Source of the DNA: Hemibagrus wyckioides
Lineage: Eukaryota; Chordata; Actinopteri; Siluriformes; Bagridae
NCBI RefSeq assembly: GCF_019097595.1
Contig: NC_080714.1
Span: forward strand, 8,077,759 to 8,141,758
Direction: 5' to 3'
DNA: 64,000 bases
The notes beneath the pieces are model-generated. The model saw nothing but the letters and a program-made list of their open reading frames with translations, was not told the origin of the DNA and did not search any database. The position numbers and the translations under genes were made by a program. Below, in pieces: positions 18,050 through 62,335 of the stretch. Each line of letters opens with the position of its first letter. Within the stretch, counting starts at the first letter, position 1.

Positions 18050-19297
18050 CACTATATTGCCAAAAGTATTTGCTCACCTGCCTTGACTCGCATATGAACT
18101 TAAGTGACATCCCATTCCTAATCCATAGGGTTCAATATGACGTCGGTCCACCCTTTGCAGCTATAACAGCTTCAACTCTTCTGGGAAGGCTGTCCACAAG
18201 GTTTAGGAGTGTGTTTATGGGAATTTTTGACCATTCTTCCAGAAGCGCATTTGTGAGGTCACACACTGATGTTGGACGAGAAGGTCTGGCTCTCAGTCTC
18301 TGCTCTAATTCATCCCAAAGGTGTTCTATCGGGTTGAGGTCAGGACTCTGTGCAGGCCAGTCAAGTTCATCCACACCAGACTCTGTCATCCATGTCTTTA
18401 TGGACCTTGCTTTGTGCACTGGTGCACAGTCATGTTGGAAGAGGAAGGGGCCAGCTCCAAACTGTTCCCACAAAGTTGGGAGCATAGAATTGTCCAAAAT
18501 GTCTTGGTATGCTGAAGCATTCAGAGTTCCTTTCACTGGAACTAAGGGGCCAAGCCCAGTTCCTGAAAAACAACCGCACACCATAATCCCCCCTCCACCA
18601 AACTTTACACTTGGCACAATGCAGTCAGACAAGTACCGTTCTCCTGGCAACCGCCAAACCCAGACTCGTCCATCAGATTGCCAGATGGAGAAGCGCGATT
18701 CGTCACTCCAGAGAACGCGTCTCCACTGCTCTAGAGTCCAGTGGCGGCGCGCTTTACACCACTGCATCCGACGTTTTGCATTGCACTTGGTGATGTATGG
18801 CTTGGATGCAGCTGCTCGGCCATGGAAACCCATTCCATGAAGCTCTCTGCGCACTGTTCTTGAGCTAATCTGAAGGCCACATGAAGTTTGGAGGTCTGTA
18901 GCGATTGACTCTGCAGAAAGTTGGCGACCTCTTCGCACTATGCGCCTCAGCATCCGCTGACCCCGCTCCGTCAGTTTACGTGGCCTACCACTTCGTGGCT
19001 GAGTTGCTGTCGTTCCCAAACACTTCCACGTTCTTATAATACAGCTGACAGTTGACTGTGGAATATTTAGGAGCGAGGAAATTTCACGACTGGATTTGTT
19101 GCACAGGTGGCATCCTATCACAGTTCCACGCTGGAATTCACTGAGCTCCTGAGAGCGACCCATTCTTTCACAAATGTTTGTAAAAACAGTCTGCATGCCT
19201 AGGTGCTTGATTTTATACACCTGTGGCCATGGAAGTGATTGGAACACCTGATTCTGATTATTTGGATGGGTGAGCGAATACTTTTGGCAATATAGTG
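18050..19297 (-). mobile_element. Complete Tc1-family DNA transposon
   Basis: The element is about 1248 bp. Inverted ends at 18050-18078 and 19269-19297 are 29 bp each, starting cactatattgccaaaagtat, and differ at one base (T versus C before gctcacc). Both ends abut TATATA runs, so the TA target duplication is present but its exact base is ambiguous. It encodes one unbroken transposase on the minus strand (18132-19163). Lengths of element, ends and protein all fit Tc1. Closely similar elements are recalled from many teleosts, and transfer of Tc1 elements between teleosts and lampreys has been reported. Confidence 0.95.
18132..19163 (-). CDS. Tc1-family transposase, apparently intact (DD34E)
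   Basis: This is the cut-and-paste transposase that would bind the element's inverted ends and move it between TA sites in the nucleus. I start it at Met-Gly-Arg-Ser-Gln-Glu-Leu (19163), giving 343 residues, the usual Tc1 length. An in-frame Met 28 codons upstream would give 371, but its extra residues do not look like Tc1 protein. Visible parts in order are a paired-type helix-turn-helix N-terminus ([18 protein letters not shown]), a GRPR-like AT-hook (SGRPRKLT), a second helix-turn-helix ([14 protein letters not shown]) and a DDE catalytic core. The core residues are Asp in WSDESRF, Asp in FQHDCAPVH and Glu in NPIEHLWDE. Exactly 34 residues separate the second Asp from the Glu, the Tc1 DD34E spacing. 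A glycine-rich box ([12 protein letters not shown]) is also present. No frameshift or stop is seen. Activity is inferred, not shown. Confidence 0.95.
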
Positions 19298-20285
19298 TAT
19301 ATATATTCCATATTACTTACGTTGTAGCAGCTACAAAAACAGCCTTTCCATCGCAAACCTCAATTCTTTTCTTGATCAGAAAAAAATAAAAACATTGCAG
19401 CTTTCACTGTTTCAGAGAAAAAAGCAAAGCACAAGCTTCTCAAACCCACAAACTCCCTGTGGTGGAAAACATGACCTTTATAACTGCAACTGCGAATGCG
19501 GACGGTGAGACTCCTTCCTTCATCTTCCTAAATACAGCGTCGCCATTCAGTGATTATACGGAATGTTTTTATTTCATTAATAAATAACAGAATTTAAATT
19601 CTATTTATAGGCTTTGTTAACTATGTTGAGCGTCCAGTCTGCAGATTCAAGATTCAAGAATTCAACAGCACAAAAAAACAAACAAAGACAATCTCATGAG
19701 GAAGTGGACAATTAAAATGTATTTGAAACTAAATGCTATGTTCATTCCAGAAATATAGTATCACAGTCGTCTCAGTGGTCTATCAGCATCCCGCCAGGCT
19801 TCTCTGATAAAGTTTCATGTGTGTTTTATAGCTAGTGTCTGCCGTAGTGCCATCAATTTGGCTGTGTGGACCCATGCAACCCTGCGCCACATCAAGTATA
19901 AACCAGCCTTATTTTCTCTTGGCTATAAACTACATTCTCCCCTTTTTTTCATTTGTCTTGCATTTTTTTCTGTTCTCTCCCTGGATTTCATTTTTTGTTG
20001 CCCATTTATCATCCAGAAAGCCCTATTAGGCAGAAAGAAGACAGGGTTGAGTCTCTCTCTCTCTCTCTCTCTAACCCCAAAGATGTCCAGCGCCAATTCC
20101 AAATCAGACGCAGCTGTCCAAAACGGTTCTTCTTTTATTCTTCTCTTGATAACCGTAGCATGTGTTTATTGAGCTAAGAGAATAGAGGGGAGCAGTAATG
20201 CTACTATATTGAAAACTATTTGTTACAGTGCAGGTTTGTGTGTTGAATAGGTTTGCTGGTCACCTTTTGGTCCTGAGAGTGTGTG
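19298..20285. other. Non-coding with a CT run
   Basis: No supported exon. A (CT)n run lies at about 20051-20073. Confidence 0.45.
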
Positions 20286-41715: not shown

Positions 41716-41950
41716 ATGAGCGCATTTTTTTATACCAACATGGTGGTGGATCCTGTTTATTCGTTAGTCGTTACGCCTGGGTCCAGACCTGCGCCAGTAT
41801 CACAGCTGGCATCCTCACAGTTCCAGGACTCGGCTGCCGCTTCCTCTTTCTCAAAGAAACTAAACAAACTCAGCCTTTCTGTCTTTCTAGAGAGCTTCTG
41901 TGTACACCATCCCTTCATGACAAGCGCCAACTGGACGCTAGGAGGGTTTG
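41716..41950 (+). CDS. plch2: Candidate alternative first exon of plch2
   Basis: An ATG (G at -3) opens 78 codons that run to a good donor, TTTG|GTAAGA, leaving one spare base. That is the same phase as exon 1, so splicing to 49727 gives ...WTLGGF then Val-Glu-Lys-Cys-Met. The peptide begins MSAFFYTNMVVDPVYSLVV and is Ser/Ala-rich with one Lys-rich stretch; I do not recognise it as a known domain. Mammalian PLCH2 is known to have alternative N-termini, which makes a second promoter plausible. In its favour are codon composition, phase and donor together. Against it is the lack of a recognised homologue. Another frame is also open here but ends in the wrong phase. Confidence 0.5.
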
Positions 41951-49726: not shown

Positions 49727-49873
49727 TGGAGAAATGCATGAGCTTGATGCAGACAGGGACACAGATGGTGAAACTAAGAGGTGGTTCAAAGGGACTGGTA
49801 CGGTACTTTTTCGTGGACGAGCACAAGTCCTGCATCCGATGGAGACCCTCCAGGAAGAATGAGAGGGCGAAAA
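49727..49873 (+). CDS. plch2: plch2 exon 2 (PH domain, N-terminal half)
   Basis: Acceptor TTTCTGTCAG and donor AAA A|GTAAGT; phase 1 in and 1 out. It encodes residues 15-63 (VEKCMSLMQTGTQMVKL... to ...WRPSRKNERAK), the first strands of the pleckstrin-homology domain that helps anchor PLC-eta at the plasma membrane. The conserved signature is CMS-MQ-GTQM-KL, G-KGLVR, DEH and RWRPSRK. Wording at several positions (VKLRG, SCIRWRPSRKN) fits PLCH2 better than PLCH1 as I recall them. The exon is downstream of the 24-kb first intron and can accept either first exon. Confidence 0.95.
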
Positions 49874-51218
49874 GTAAGTTTCTCTTTCTGCTTTCTCATT
49901 GGGGCTCATTTATTCAGCCACCCTGTTAGTTTACTCAGTTTATTTAACTCTGTTAATTCTCTTAATTCTGTTAACTCTATCTGTGCCTCAACCCTGAGAC
50001 TCTAGGACTAACTAATAACTGCATATTGTATTGTATACGAACATTTCCATTTTACTTTATACACTATCCTTGAACCGGTTCTATGTTTGACTAAACTGTA
50101 TCAAGACGCATAAATCTTCTTAATTCAAATTAAAAACTTTTCTCTATTCAAATTACTTTTGTTCACTATACGTAATGTATACTGTATATGTAAAATACTC
50201 TAAAACAGAATTGATCTTAGTATTTCCATCATTATTATACCTCTAAATATAAAAGGTCGTTTGGCATCTTGTGTTCTCTTCTTCTCATATACAGTGCACT
50301 AGTATATTAATAATAATTTGTGTGCATTAGTGAAATTAGTTAAAGTTATAAGAGCTATAAACAAACACAAGCTGTTTCTTTTCCCTCTCTTGAAATTTGT
50401 AAAATATATATTTTCTATAAAAGCAGCTTTTTAAAAACATCTCTGTACTAATGGTTTCGTTAAAAACCACACAGAAGCGTTTACAACGCTGTGACAGAGC
50501 ACAAGGTGAGGAAAATTTCCGAAATGAATCAGCTCCTTAAGTCTCCTCAATAATTCATCAGCCGTAACTGGAAAGGGTTCAGCCGCTTTAAAGAGCCAAA
50601 TGTTTCCTCATGAGTTTACGGATCTAACCTGGGTGAGAATACAAAGCGAGGTTTGTTCTGGAAAGACAAACAAGTGTCACAGCAACAATTTCAGACAATC
50701 AGTCATGACGCTGCATATCAAAGATGGCTTCAGTTATTCAACAGGCTTCGTCCATACCAGCGCAGCCTGAGGTCACTTTCCCACCACATGATATCCAGGA
50801 GGTATGTTTTTATACAGTGTGCTGATCTCATTTTCACACTTCACGCACCTTCATATCACACACATGATACACCTGGTTAGGATTCAGTATCGTCACTGAC
50901 AGAATAACAAGGATTATGATAAGTGAACGTTTTACAAGCACCATCTGTGATTTCGCAAAGCTCCTCTTGTCATTCACAACCGGCAGCTTTGTGTTTCCAC
51001 CAATTCCAGCATGAGGAAACGTGAAGCGTGAGAGCTCCGGCTGTAGGAGAGTGGAGTGGAGTGGAGTGTGCAGTAACACAGCTGCTTTAATGCTGTAGCT
51101 GCTGCACAGCTTTTACTCTGTAACTGTACTTTTATATTCACTCACACACTTCACTCCTGTTTCTGCTCAACAACTGTTATTGTACTGTTTCCTTTACTAA
51201 TGACCACATTTCCATACC

Positions 51219-51219
51219 T

Positions 51220-51297
<78 letters not shown>

Positions 51298-51342
51298 TTA
51301 ATGGAGAACTTTAAAACTTTTCTTTCTTTCTTCTGGAGATTT

Positions 51343-51386
<44 letters not shown>

Positions 51387-51551
51387 TTTCTTTCTGTCCT
51401 TCCTTCCTTCCTCCGTACCTCCCTCCATCTCTTCCTTCCTTGTTCCTGATTGGAGGAAGGATACAACAATCCTTTTTAATAGACATATTTTCAAATATTT
51501 CCTTCCTTCCTTCCTTCCTTCCTTCCTTCCATCCTTAATGGAGATTTAATT

Positions 51552-51599
<48 letters not shown>

Positions 51600-51812
51600 T
51601 TTCTTTCTGTCCTTCCTTCCTTCCTTCCTCCGTACCTCCCTCCATCTCTTCCTTCCTTGTTCCTGATTGGAGGAAGGATACAACAATCCTTTTTAATAGA
51701 CATATTTTCAAATATTTCCTTTCTTTCTTCCTTCCTTCCTTCCTTCCTTCCTTCCTTCCTTCCTTCCTTCCTTCGTTCCTTCCTTTCTTCCTTCCTTAAT
51801 GGAGATTTAATT

Positions 51813-51896
<84 letters not shown>

Positions 51897-51942
51897 TCCT
51901 TCTTTCTTTCTTTCTTTCTTTCTTTCTCTTCATCTCTAATTG
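51219..51942. repeat. Long TTTC/TTCC pyrimidine tract with a 217-bp internal duplication
   Basis: Roughly 720 bases of almost pure pyrimidine on the + strand. A unique island (ctccgtacctccctccatct through a run ending caaatatttcc) occurs at 51411 and again at 51628, a 217-bp offset, so a larger unit was duplicated. It lies in intron 2 and ends about 77 bp before the exon 3 acceptor. All frames on both strands are open and give Ser/Phe/Leu or Lys/Glu repeats; these are not genes. Confidence 0.95.
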
Positions 51943-52019
51943 TCCTCCTCAGTCTGCTCTGTTCCACCCCTCACACCACACATGCATGTGTCACATCCTC
52001 TGCTCTCTGTCGTTTGCAG

Positions 52020-52263
52020 TCTCCATCGACTTGATTCGTGAGGTGCGTGAGGGGAAGCAGTCAGAGATCTTCCAGCGCTATGCAGACGGCAGCTTCGACC
52101 CCAACTGCTGCTTCAGCATCTACTACGGTGAACATATGGAGTCGCTGGATTTGGTCTCGGGAACAGGCGAGGAGGCGCGCACCTGGATTACTGGTCTTAA
52201 GTACCTTATGGCAGGCATCAGCGATGAGGACAGTCTGGCCAAACGCCAGCGCACCCGGGACCA
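52020..52263 (+). CDS. plch2: plch2 exon 3 (PH domain, C-terminal half)
   Basis: Acceptor CGTTTGCAG. It encodes residues 64-144, including SIDLIREV, the family block FDPNCCFSIYYG, MESLDLVSG, EEARTWITGLKYLMAG and ISDEDSLAKRQRTRD. These finish the PH domain and start the linker to the EF-hands. The exon ends GAC CA with no GT. What follows is ATATCCTT, a U12-type AT-AC donor; read straight through, the frame meets a stop after Tyr-Pro-Ser. FDPNCCFSIY is a strong PLCH2-type match. Confidence 0.96.
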
Positions 52264-52980
52264 ATATCCTTCCTAATGGAAAGCTGTATCAGGGACACTG
52301 AGCTTGATCCCAGAAATGTGTTTTGATATTGGCTTTAAAAAAGGTGCAAATTTCAGGAGAATTCATGTGAAATATGTATCTGTTTAATAAGTGACTGAAA
52401 ATGAAGACATTATTTAGAATAAACAGATATTGTGTCCTAAATAGATACAAATAGGAGACATGCTATTCATTCATCTGTTCATACCAGATAATTCAAAAGG
52501 CATACACACAGTAATAGCATAAATCCAAAACAGCAGGTAAAAACATGATTCATACAGGAGCAAGACAGGATAATCAGAGACTATCTGAGTCAAAGTCCAA
52601 AGAAAGGCTTACTAACATCAAGGAGCACTGAAACTAAGCGTGCTCATATGGTGGCCATATTTGTTGCGGCGAAACAGGAGCCATGACGTTACGTGCTGTG
52701 ACACAAACACGCTACCACGAAGTCAGTGCATCTTTTAGTGACCTAGCAACACATTTTAATCAATTCACTTTCTTTTTGAGTAACCCTGCCTTTATTTAAG
52801 CTCAAACTTCTATTTTGTGTGTGTGTGTGTTGTATCTAATTTGTATAGTGGACTAACTGTCATTATTCAGATTTTCTTATAATATACCATCTGACTCAAC
52901 AGCTGTGTGTTTGTAGTGTACTGTAGCGTATATTTTCTGTCTCTGTTTACGATGTTCTTCTCCTTAACTGCATGCGTCAC
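52264..52980 (+). other. plch2: U12-type AT-AC intron of plch2 (intron 3)
   Basis: The intron starts ATATCCTT (52264-52271), the U12 donor core. It ends CAC, with terminal AC at 52979-52980. TCCTTAAC at 52961-52968 matches the U12 branch-site consensus, with the likely branch A (52967) 13 bases from the 3' end. Splicing CA|G restores Gln145 and gives DQWLKQTF, the sequence expected in PLC-eta; no GT-AG alternative does this. It would be removed by the minor spliceosome. The intron is 717 bp with one (GT)n at about 52816-52830. Confidence 0.95.
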
Positions 52981-53110
52981 GTGGCTGAAGCAGACTTTCA
53001 CAGAAGCTGACAAGAACGGAGACGGCAGCCTGAGCATCAGCGAGGTTCTACAGCTTCTGCATAAGCTCAATGTCAACTTACCCAGGCAGAAAGTAAAGCA
53101 GATGTTCAAG
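52981..53110 (+). CDS. plch2: plch2 exon 4 (first EF-hand)
   Basis: Residues 145-188, from QWLKQTFTEAD to KVKQMFK, then donor AAG|GTAAAG (phase 0). It carries a canonical 12-residue EF-hand loop, DKNGDGSLSISE (residues 155-166), with Asp at positions 1 and 5 (155 and 159), Asn at 3 and Glu at 12, so Ca2+ binding is likely. The following helix EVLQLLHKLNVNLPRQ is characteristic of PLC-eta2. The exon enters from the AT-AC intron. Confidence 0.96.
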
Positions 53111-56278: not shown

Positions 56279-56788
56279 CACCGATCAGGCATAACATTAT
56301 GGCCACATGCCTAATATTGTGTTGGTTCCCTTTTCGCTGCCAAAACAGCCCTCACCCGTCATGCACTGTGTATTCTAACACCTTTTTATCGCAACCAGCA
56401 TTAACTTCTTCAGCAGTTTGAGCAACAGTAGCTCGTCTGTTAGATCGGATCACACGGGCCAGCCTTCGGTCCCCACGTGCACCAGTGAGCCTTGGCCGCC
56501 CATGACCCTGTCACCGGTTCACCACTGTTCCTTCCTTGGACCATATCCTTTTGATAGATACTGACCACTGCAGACCGGGAACGTCTAGCCGTCACAATAT
56601 GGCCCTTGTCAAACTCCCTCAAATCCTTACGCTTGTCCATTTTTCCTGCTTCTAACACATCAACTTTGAAGACAAAATGTTCACTTGCTGCCTAATATAT
56701 CCCACCCACTAACAGGTGCCATGATGAGGAGATCATCAGTGTTATTCACTTCACCTGTCAGTGGTCATAATGTTATGCCTGATTGGTG
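56279..56788 (-). mobile_element. Internally deleted Tc1-type element with both inverted ends
   Basis: The 28-bp ends start caccgatcaggcataacatt on the left, and the right end (56761-56788) is its inverted match with two differences; TA lies on both sides. The minus strand keeps transposase pieces: MDKRKDLREFDKGHIV and [11 protein letters not shown], the N-terminal DNA-binding region of a Tc1-type protein, then an incomplete remainder. It cannot move without help. A related, end-less copy is at 39447-39840. It sits 156 bp before exon 5. Confidence 0.9.
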
Positions 56789-56944: not shown

Positions 56945-57115
56945 GAAGCAGATACAGATGATAACCAGGGCACTTTGGGCTTTGACGAGTTCTGCTCCTT
57001 CTACAAGATGATGTCGACACGGCGAGACCTGTACCTGCTGATGCTCACCTACAGCAACCATAAAGACCACCTAGACACGGACGACCTGGCACGCTTCCTC
57101 GAAATTGAACAAAAG
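56945..57115 (+). CDS. plch2: plch2 exon 5 (second EF-hand and following helices)
   Basis: Exactly 57 codons, phase 0 on both sides (acceptor CCTACAG, donor AAAAG|GTGACG), residues 189-245. The start EADTDDNQGTLGFDEF (residues 189-204) is the second EF-hand. Its loop has NQG where NG would be usual, one residue longer than canonical, as in other PLC-eta proteins. FYKMMSTRRDLYLLMLTYSN and the HKDHL block follow and are close to PLCH2. Confidence 0.97.
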
Positions 57116-59259: not shown

Positions 59260-59353
59260 ATGGTACGAGTCACAAAAGAGCATTGCCTTGAAATCGTCGC
59301 CAAGTTTGAACCTTGTCCTGAAAACCAGAAGCAGGGGGTTCTAGGTATTGACG
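59260..59353 (+). CDS. plch2: plch2 exon 6 (EF-hand region to X-domain linker)
   Basis: Acceptor TTATTTCAG, donor GAC G|GTAAGA; residues 246-276 plus one base. It encodes MVRVTKEHCLEIVAKF, FEPCPENQKQG and LGIDG; FEPCPEN and the LGI(D/E)G block at the junction are PLCH2-like. Reading past the donor gives an in-frame stop, so the splice is needed. Confidence 0.95.
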
Positions 59354-60725: not shown

Positions 60726-60929
60726 GTTTCACAAATTACATGCGAAGTCCAGCTGGAGACATCTTTAATCCCGAACACTATGAAGTGAACCAGGACATGA
60801 CTCAGCCTCTGTGCAAGTACTTTATCGCCTCCTCACATAACACCTACCTGATGGGGGACCAGCTGATGTCTCAGTCCAGGGTGGACATGTACTCATGGGT
60901 CCTGCAAGCAGGCTGCAGATGTGTGGAAG
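60726..60929 (+). CDS. plch2: plch2 exon 7 (catalytic X domain, first part)
   Basis: Residues 277-344, [17 protein letters not shown] through GCRCVE. It contains the PLC signature IASSHNTYL with catalytic His314 and Ca2+-ligand Asn315, then [13 protein letters not shown] and the Ca2+-ligand Glu344 as the last full codon before donor G|GTCAGT. These match His311, Asn312 and Glu341 of PLC-delta1 at +3. PLC-eta hydrolyses phosphatidylinositol 4,5-bisphosphate to inositol trisphosphate and diacylglycerol at the inner plasma membrane, mainly in neural tissue in mammals. Confidence 0.98.
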
Positions 60930-61568: not shown

Positions 61569-61689
61569 TGGACTGTTGGGATGGACAAGATGGAGAACCA
61601 ATCGTCCACCATGGCTATACTCTAACATCCAAAATCCTGTTTAAGGATGTGATTGAAACCATCAACAAATATGCGTTTGTCAAGAACCC
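61569..61689 (+). CDS. plch2: plch2 exon 8 (catalytic X domain, second part)
   Basis: Residues 345-384 plus two bases (acceptor TTTTCCAG, donor CC|GTAAGT). It encodes [20 protein letters not shown] and then [20 protein letters not shown]. Asp346 and catalytic His359 correspond to Asp343 and His356 of PLC-delta1. The Val codon is split with exon 7. IETINKYAF fits PLCH2. Confidence 0.98.
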
Positions 61690-62163: not shown

Positions 62164-62335
62164 GTACCCAGTGATCTTGTCCATAGAGAACCACTGCAGT
62201 GTTCCTCAGCAGAAGAAGATGGCTCAGTATCTGGTGGAAATCTTGGGGGAGCAGTTGGACTTGTCATCAGTCAAAGCCGACGAATCAGGACTTCTACCAT
62301 CTCCCGATTCCCTCAAAGGCAAAATTCTTGTCAAG
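62164..62335 (+). CDS. plch2: plch2 exon 9 (catalytic X domain, end)
   Basis: Residues 385-442, starting Pro-Tyr-Pro-Val-Ile-Leu-Ser-Ile-Glu-Asn-His and ending KGKILVK. Glu393 matches the Ca2+-ligand Glu390 of PLC-delta1, so all six residues I checked are in place. The acceptor is GTCTTCAG. The donor, AAG|GTCAAC, is weak; beyond it the frame runs into poly-pyrimidine, so the exon must end here or nearby. The X-Y linker, Y domain and C2 domain are outside the window. Confidence 0.95.

Follow-up and report, generated by a model that had tools for sequence, protein, structure and literature searches.

A plch2 intron with AT-AC termini and minor-spliceosome signals at a site shared among PLC-delta and PLC-eta genes

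Which spliceosome removes an intron that begins with AT and ends with AC? The question is raised by plch2, a PLC-eta2 gene in the 64,000-nt stretch of Hemibagrus wyckioides DNA analysed here (the window), where such an intron separates exons 3 and 4. A sequence-only reading had called this interval, 52264-52980, a U12-type AT-AC intron, and its signals and reading frame are as that reading described. We put at roughly 97% the probability that this interval is a minor (U12-type) intron of the A-type (AT-AN) class, lying at an old phase-2 site of the PLC-eta2 gene where the PH domain gives way to the first EF-hand.

Boundaries and splicing signals of the plch2 intron

Direct reading places the intron at 52264-52980 on the forward strand (717 nt, phase 2). 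Exon 3 closes with ...CGGGACCA at 52263, the last two bases being the CA of a Gln codon. The intron opens with ATATCCTTCCTA at 52264 and runs to ...TTCTCCTTAACTGCATGCGTCAC at 52980 (closing sequence TCCTTAACTGCATGCGTCAC, terminal AC at 52979-52980), and exon 4 starts from 52981 with GTGGCTGAAG. An AT start and an AN end place the intron in the A-type class.

The U12 5' splice-site consensus is close to [AG]TATCCTTT, and the ATATCCTTCC at 52264-52273 agrees with it. The branch-site consensus is close to TTCCTTAAC, about 10-15 nt before the intron 3' end; the plch2 intron carries CTCCTTAAC, with one mismatch at the first base. Within this match, TCCTTAAC occupies 52961-52968, and its second A (52967), the likely branch A, lies 13 nt before 52980, the distance given in the sequence-only reading. 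The intron thus resembles A-type minor introns in its ATATCCTT start, in the placement of TCCTTAAC, in its AC terminus and in being a U12 intron among GT-AG introns. It differs in having C rather than the consensus T immediately 5' of TCCTTAAC and in following CCTT with CC rather than TT; against the consensus it is otherwise typical.

From the branch site to the 3' end, a stretch that includes TGCATGCGTCAC, the intron lacks a pyrimidine run; a pyrimidine-rich stretch lies upstream of the branch site, at about 52932-52965. This upstream stretch speaks for removal by the major spliceosome, and passages of PMC6717393 and PMC2831892 show that U2-type AT-AC introns exist. However, the sodium channel U2-type AT-AC introns described in part of PMC2831892 have G at position +5, whereas the +5 base of ATATCCTT in plch2 is C. 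A U12 branch site so placed, 13 nt short of the intron end and with no pyrimidine run in between, also argues against removal by the major spliceosome, which we consider very improbable.

Joining 52263 to 52981 gives RTRDQWLKQTFTEADKNGDG and restores RTRDQWLKQTF. The joined reading is RTRDQWLKQTFTEADKNGDGSL; in Pfam it matches PH_12 upstream of the junction and an EF-hand from the junction on. A retained intron reads RDQYPS and then meets a stop codon at 52274-52276 (ORF 51800-52276). We also tested 2968 GT/GC-AG pairs (donors 52100-52980, acceptors up to 53059, introns of at least 60 nt); 91 are open in frame, those listed use donors at or before 52251, and no tested join keeps RTRDQ. Across the pairs tested, no GT/GC-AG reading takes the place of the AT-AC splice.

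The plch2 gene model

The gene lies on the forward strand and appears to continue beyond the end of the window. Its likely coding exon 1 (41917-41950, MTSANWTLGGF-, donor GTAAGA) was placed by a match to the N-terminus of the Hemibagrus guttatus protein P0011. Exon 2 (49727-49873, GT donor) encodes part of the PH domain and exon 3 (52020-52263) its end, with RTRDQ as the final residues. Exon 4 (52981-53110, GT donor) encodes the first EF-hand (WLKQTFTEADKNGDG...) and exon 5 (56945-57115) belongs to the EF-hand region; exon 5, like exons 6 (59260-59353), 7 (60726-60929) and 8 (61569-61689), has GT-AG flanks. What we take, from knowledge of the family, to be the catalytic X domain starts in exon 7 and extends through exons 8 and 9 (62164-62335). 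Other introns between exons 2 and 9 are GT-AG (6 of 7).

The exons are open in a single frame across a 428-residue model. Matches to Pfam PH_12 and EF-hand_7, together with close database proteins named eta-2 (for example P0018 and P0025), identify the product as PLC-eta2, in agreement with the earlier assignment to the PH/EF junction of a PLC-eta gene. P0011 matched 66% of the query, with 99% identity over that part. An NCBIfam calcium-binding match to the model scored 24.9 bits against a cut-off of 120 and was rejected as an echo of the EF-hand. An Rfam scan of the window returned nothing above threshold.

Just 5' of exon 3, at about 51200-51930, are long TTTC/TTCC simple-repeat tracts with repeated blocks. 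On the reverse strand, 18135-19316 holds an open frame of 394 residues from stop to stop, presumably a Tc1/mariner-like transposase by its motif. A second reverse-strand fragment, at 56440-56691 in plch2 intron 3, is assumed to be Tc1-like on the same kind of ground and contains ATATCCTTTT at 56543. This U12-like start, sitting in an apparent Tc1-type transposon remnant, was set aside as a chance occurrence.

The homologous site in paralogs of the same genome

We searched the genome with plch2 exons 3-4, read the loci found and spliced them in frame. The sequence-only reading had suggested an ancestral site and a comparison among plch1, plch2 and other PLC genes; in that comparison a phase-2 U12 5' splice site lies at the homologous codon in all six PLC-delta/eta genes found, plch2 included. 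The termini are AT-AC in two genes (plch2, 717 nt, and the PLC-delta gene on C2, 1794 nt), AT-AA in one (plch1, locus L024, C4:27764300-27770000; ATATCCTTTA ... CCCTTAACCCCGAGCGAAA, 5215 nt) and GT-AG in three (the PLC-delta genes on C6, C23 and C20, of 153, 135 and 121 nt). An ATATCC start is common to plch2, plch1 and one PLC-delta gene. The C23 and C20 copies have weak branch sites (CCTTAC). For the C20 and C2 copies the best PDB match is PLC-delta 1. The AT-AA intron of plch1 is of a rare non-canonical minor-intron type.

These paralogs bear on the possibility that plch2 is a defective copy whose AT start arose by damage to a GT donor. Nothing specific was seen in favour of that reading; the single open frame of the model and the recurrence of ATATCC in plch1 and a PLC-delta gene argue against it, and it is the least probable of the alternatives considered here. 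The presence of the same phase-2 U12 site in plch1, in four PLC-delta genes and in PLCH1- and PLCH2-type database ORFs (below) supports a U12-type intron at an ancestral position, which, from these sequences, would most simply predate the split between eta and delta. In a 10-row paralog tree the four PLC-delta copies group together (support 98/98) and the deep forks are weak; we therefore propose no sequence of subtype changes linking delta and eta.

Other PLC relatives differ at this position. Three genes that read through the site without an intron are presumably PLCL, a name that we give them from their long uninterrupted exons. Two PLC-gamma genes (L033 and L034) have an intron at the same codon and in the same phase as plch2, after two bases of the codon before W. 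In contrast to plch2, these introns have donors GTCTGTACT and GTACGTTCA, GT-AG termini and no U12 start, and are U2-like, of the major class. Intron class at one ancestral position thus likely differs in PLC-gamma, as far as the sequences indicate.

The 5' splice site in database proteins

The searched database contains many ORFs predicted from unspliced contigs and can thus serve as genomic evidence. At a U12 start, such ORFs read from RDQ into YP because CA|[AG]TATCC encodes Gln-Tyr-Pro; the YP reading requires TA[TC]CC directly after the Gln codon and leaves A and G indistinguishable as the first intron base. In a protein search 314 proteins passed the threshold, and our counts come from the 120 of them that were listed. 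An RT[RH]DQ-type end runs into YP at the same codon in 116 of these 120, of which 103 have a PLCH2-type end (T[RK]DQ) and 13 a PLCH1-type end (THDQ). The four exceptions among the matches listed are P0023, P0069, P0081 and P0090.

Both protein searches together gave 148 YP rows among the matches listed. In 132 of them the codon of the next residue can begin with T (intron +7); of the others, 8 have a residue that excludes T at +7 and 8 stop at YP. As a control we read the end of the next exon, a U2-type site. Here the read-through residue is V (GTN) in 74 of the 75 rows with the motif, which is absent in 20 of 95. The branch-site codings FLN and SLT (corresponding to TTCCTTAAC and TCCTTAAC) are visible in many database rows.

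Chance expectation

The two U12 motifs occur within 5 kb of each other somewhere in 64 kb in 12 of 120 sequences simulated with the window's dinucleotide transitions. Within the window, both strands together hold 5 copies of [AG]TATCCTT (5.1 expected). At one given base, the probability is 4.4e-5 for [AG]TATCCTT and 2.0e-5 for TCCTTAAC. A genome-wide search (790 Mb) with the tight pattern ATATCCTT-N20-40-TCCTTAAC, which the 717-nt plch2 intron itself cannot match, gave 8 matches and 7 in the reversed control, and thus no signal. Loose co-occurrence of the motifs is within chance. Their location is beyond chance, because the site recurs at the same codon in paralogs and in other species and the per-base probabilities are low.

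If the gene used a conventional GT-AG intron bounded elsewhere, or skipped an exon here, the AT-AC match would be a coincidence. The simulated co-occurrence is compatible with this, and several annotated database proteins do use such joins. However, RTRDQ is lost in each of the 91 open GT/GC-AG joins listed. The 5' site is also present in six paralogs of this genome (plch2 counted) and in 116 of the 120 database proteins listed, and proteins from short spliced contigs retain DQW. We regard a GT-AG structure as even less probable than a U2-type AT-AC intron.

Spliced and misjoined proteins

Those short contigs come from a second protein search, whose length filter favours fragments. Among its 88 proteins, 21 are spliced to W[LMV]KxTF and 32 run into YP; the exon-3 end is missing from 34, and one (P0217) has a shifted join. 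The spliced proteins include the mouse PLCH2 isoform P0224 and nine from raw contigs of at most 1922 nt with several exons. These nine most likely derive from spliced RNA, since such contigs would be too short for an unspliced gene with exons spaced as they are here.

Annotated entries from NCBI, UniRef or nr make up 24 of the 32 YP rows, and they end in, run through or misjoin at the intron. This supports the earlier expectation that gene finders would truncate the protein or skip an exon at this point. The site thus marks a place where public PLC-eta gene models are often wrong.

Apparent variation at the 3' end

In ORFs that read out of the intron into exon 4, the codon before that of W consists of the final two intron bases and a G. 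Its residue reports the intron end: T stands for AC, M for AT, K for AA and R for AG, although R could also reflect CG. The exon-4 pattern was found in 125 rows among 303 proteins compared. We set aside 15 rows in which M is the first residue, because this M might be a GTG or TTG start, and left out three misjoined models (P0238, P0271 and P0290). The 107 rows kept have T in 53, K in 32, M in 19 and R in 3; at least 14 of the 107 are annotated entries rather than raw ORFs, including one of the three R rows (P0258). As read from these residues, the penultimate A is kept and the final intron base drifts among AC, AT, AA and AG ends at a conserved site. Both intron ends fall within one ORF in 12 cases (T in 7, K in 4, M in 1).

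The residue varies with the type of exon. PLCH1-type rows most often have T, as do those whose exon reads TFTEAD or TFSEAD; K also appears in 5 of the 20 TFSEAD rows. The land-vertebrate-type exon (TFDEADKNGD) occurs in 49 rows, most of them with K (25) or M (11); another 9 are among those set aside for a first-residue M. AC is thus the end in most fish-type plch2 rows, AT and AA are found in land-vertebrate-type PLCH2, and AG in few rows. In P0003 and P0004, K occurs together with a YPW form, which is also found in named mammals (P0064, P0092 and P0271). Most rows bear no species name; since K goes with YPW and YPW occurs in named mammals, the AA end would be present in mammals.

Three mammal-type PLCH2 proteins (P0069, P0081 and P0090) join exons 3 and 4 one or four bases off and out of frame (RDQVAEADV, RDHKVAEADI). 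These joins could be genuine slippage at an AT-AA end or an artefact. Given these proteins, the precision of the junction may vary elsewhere.

Minor-spliceosome machinery and proposed splicing

The genome encodes the four minor-spliceosome snRNAs, with matches above the Rfam gathering score at two loci for U12, two for U6atac, one for U11 and one for U4atac. A CCDC84/CENATAC relative also occurs; its match is split into pieces, as the introns of such a gene would lead one to expect. The genome's U12 snRNA can form an 8-base pairing with TCCTT(A)ACT in which the branch A is bulged. This pairing is not significant, being reached by 309 of 2000 shuffles, since wobble pairs were permitted and both sequences are of low complexity.

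What is established about the minor spliceosome suggests how the intron would be removed. U11/U12 would bind ATATCCTT at the 5' splice site as well as TCCTTAAC at the branch site, after which U6atac would replace U11. The branch A at 52967 would then attack 52264, and in this species the exons would be joined at 52263/52981. CENATAC is probably needed for the plch2 intron, because the intron is AT-AN. If splicing failed, translation would meet a stop three codons into the intron, yielding the PH part only, or the RNA would be degraded.

Relation to known minor introns

U12DB, MIDB and a 2001 scan of the human genome probably list the site. The searched literature on PLCH1 or PLCH2 with minor or U12 introns, together with the portion of the wider phospholipase C literature consulted, yielded no site-level description. 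The link that the sequence-only reading drew between the PLC family and U12 introns is in print: according to an excerpt of PMC6865273, minor-intron genes make up 60% of phospholipase C genes. Sections of PMC6717393, PMC8280824 and PMC10639083 put AT-AC at about 22-26% of mammalian U12 introns, so that the earlier description of AT-AC as a small minority among U12 introns is an overstatement. Passages of PMC10639083 also place AT-AA first and AT-AT second in frequency among non-canonical minor-intron ends in animals, and cite a figure of 91% for human minor introns conserved in zebrafish.

Part of PMC2603472 names a PLC-delta intron that is U12-type with GT/AG ends. It belongs to the same gene family as the plch2 intron; in the genome analysed here, the four PLC-delta genes found carry a U12 5' splice site at the homologous codon and in the same phase. 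Three of these four copies differ from plch2 in being GT-AG and 121-153 nt long, compared with AT-AC and 717 nt. Subtype switching and U12-to-U2 conversion are described in passages of PMC2831892. The plch2 intron is thus a well-conserved example of an established class, and its gene family is one in which minor introns are known to be frequent. What is added here is the same-site series in one genome and the last-base drift among database ORFs.

Excerpts of PMC8280824 define AT-AN introns and describe their dependence on CENATAC as a class effect in human cells. Speculatively, and with rather low probability, the AT-AN junction may be a slow, CENATAC-dependent control point, at which the 5' site is fixed and the final base is free to drift. 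Retention or one-base slippage would then produce, in some lineages, PH-only, catalytically dead PLC-eta messages; the drift in this proposal comes from the ORFs, and the rest is hypothetical. At this one site, one genome holds AT-AC, AT-AA and GT-AG introns of U12 type, U2-like introns in PLC-gamma and no intron in the PLCL-like genes. In such a same-site series, gene family and position stay constant, so that subtype switching and CENATAC specificity can be compared.
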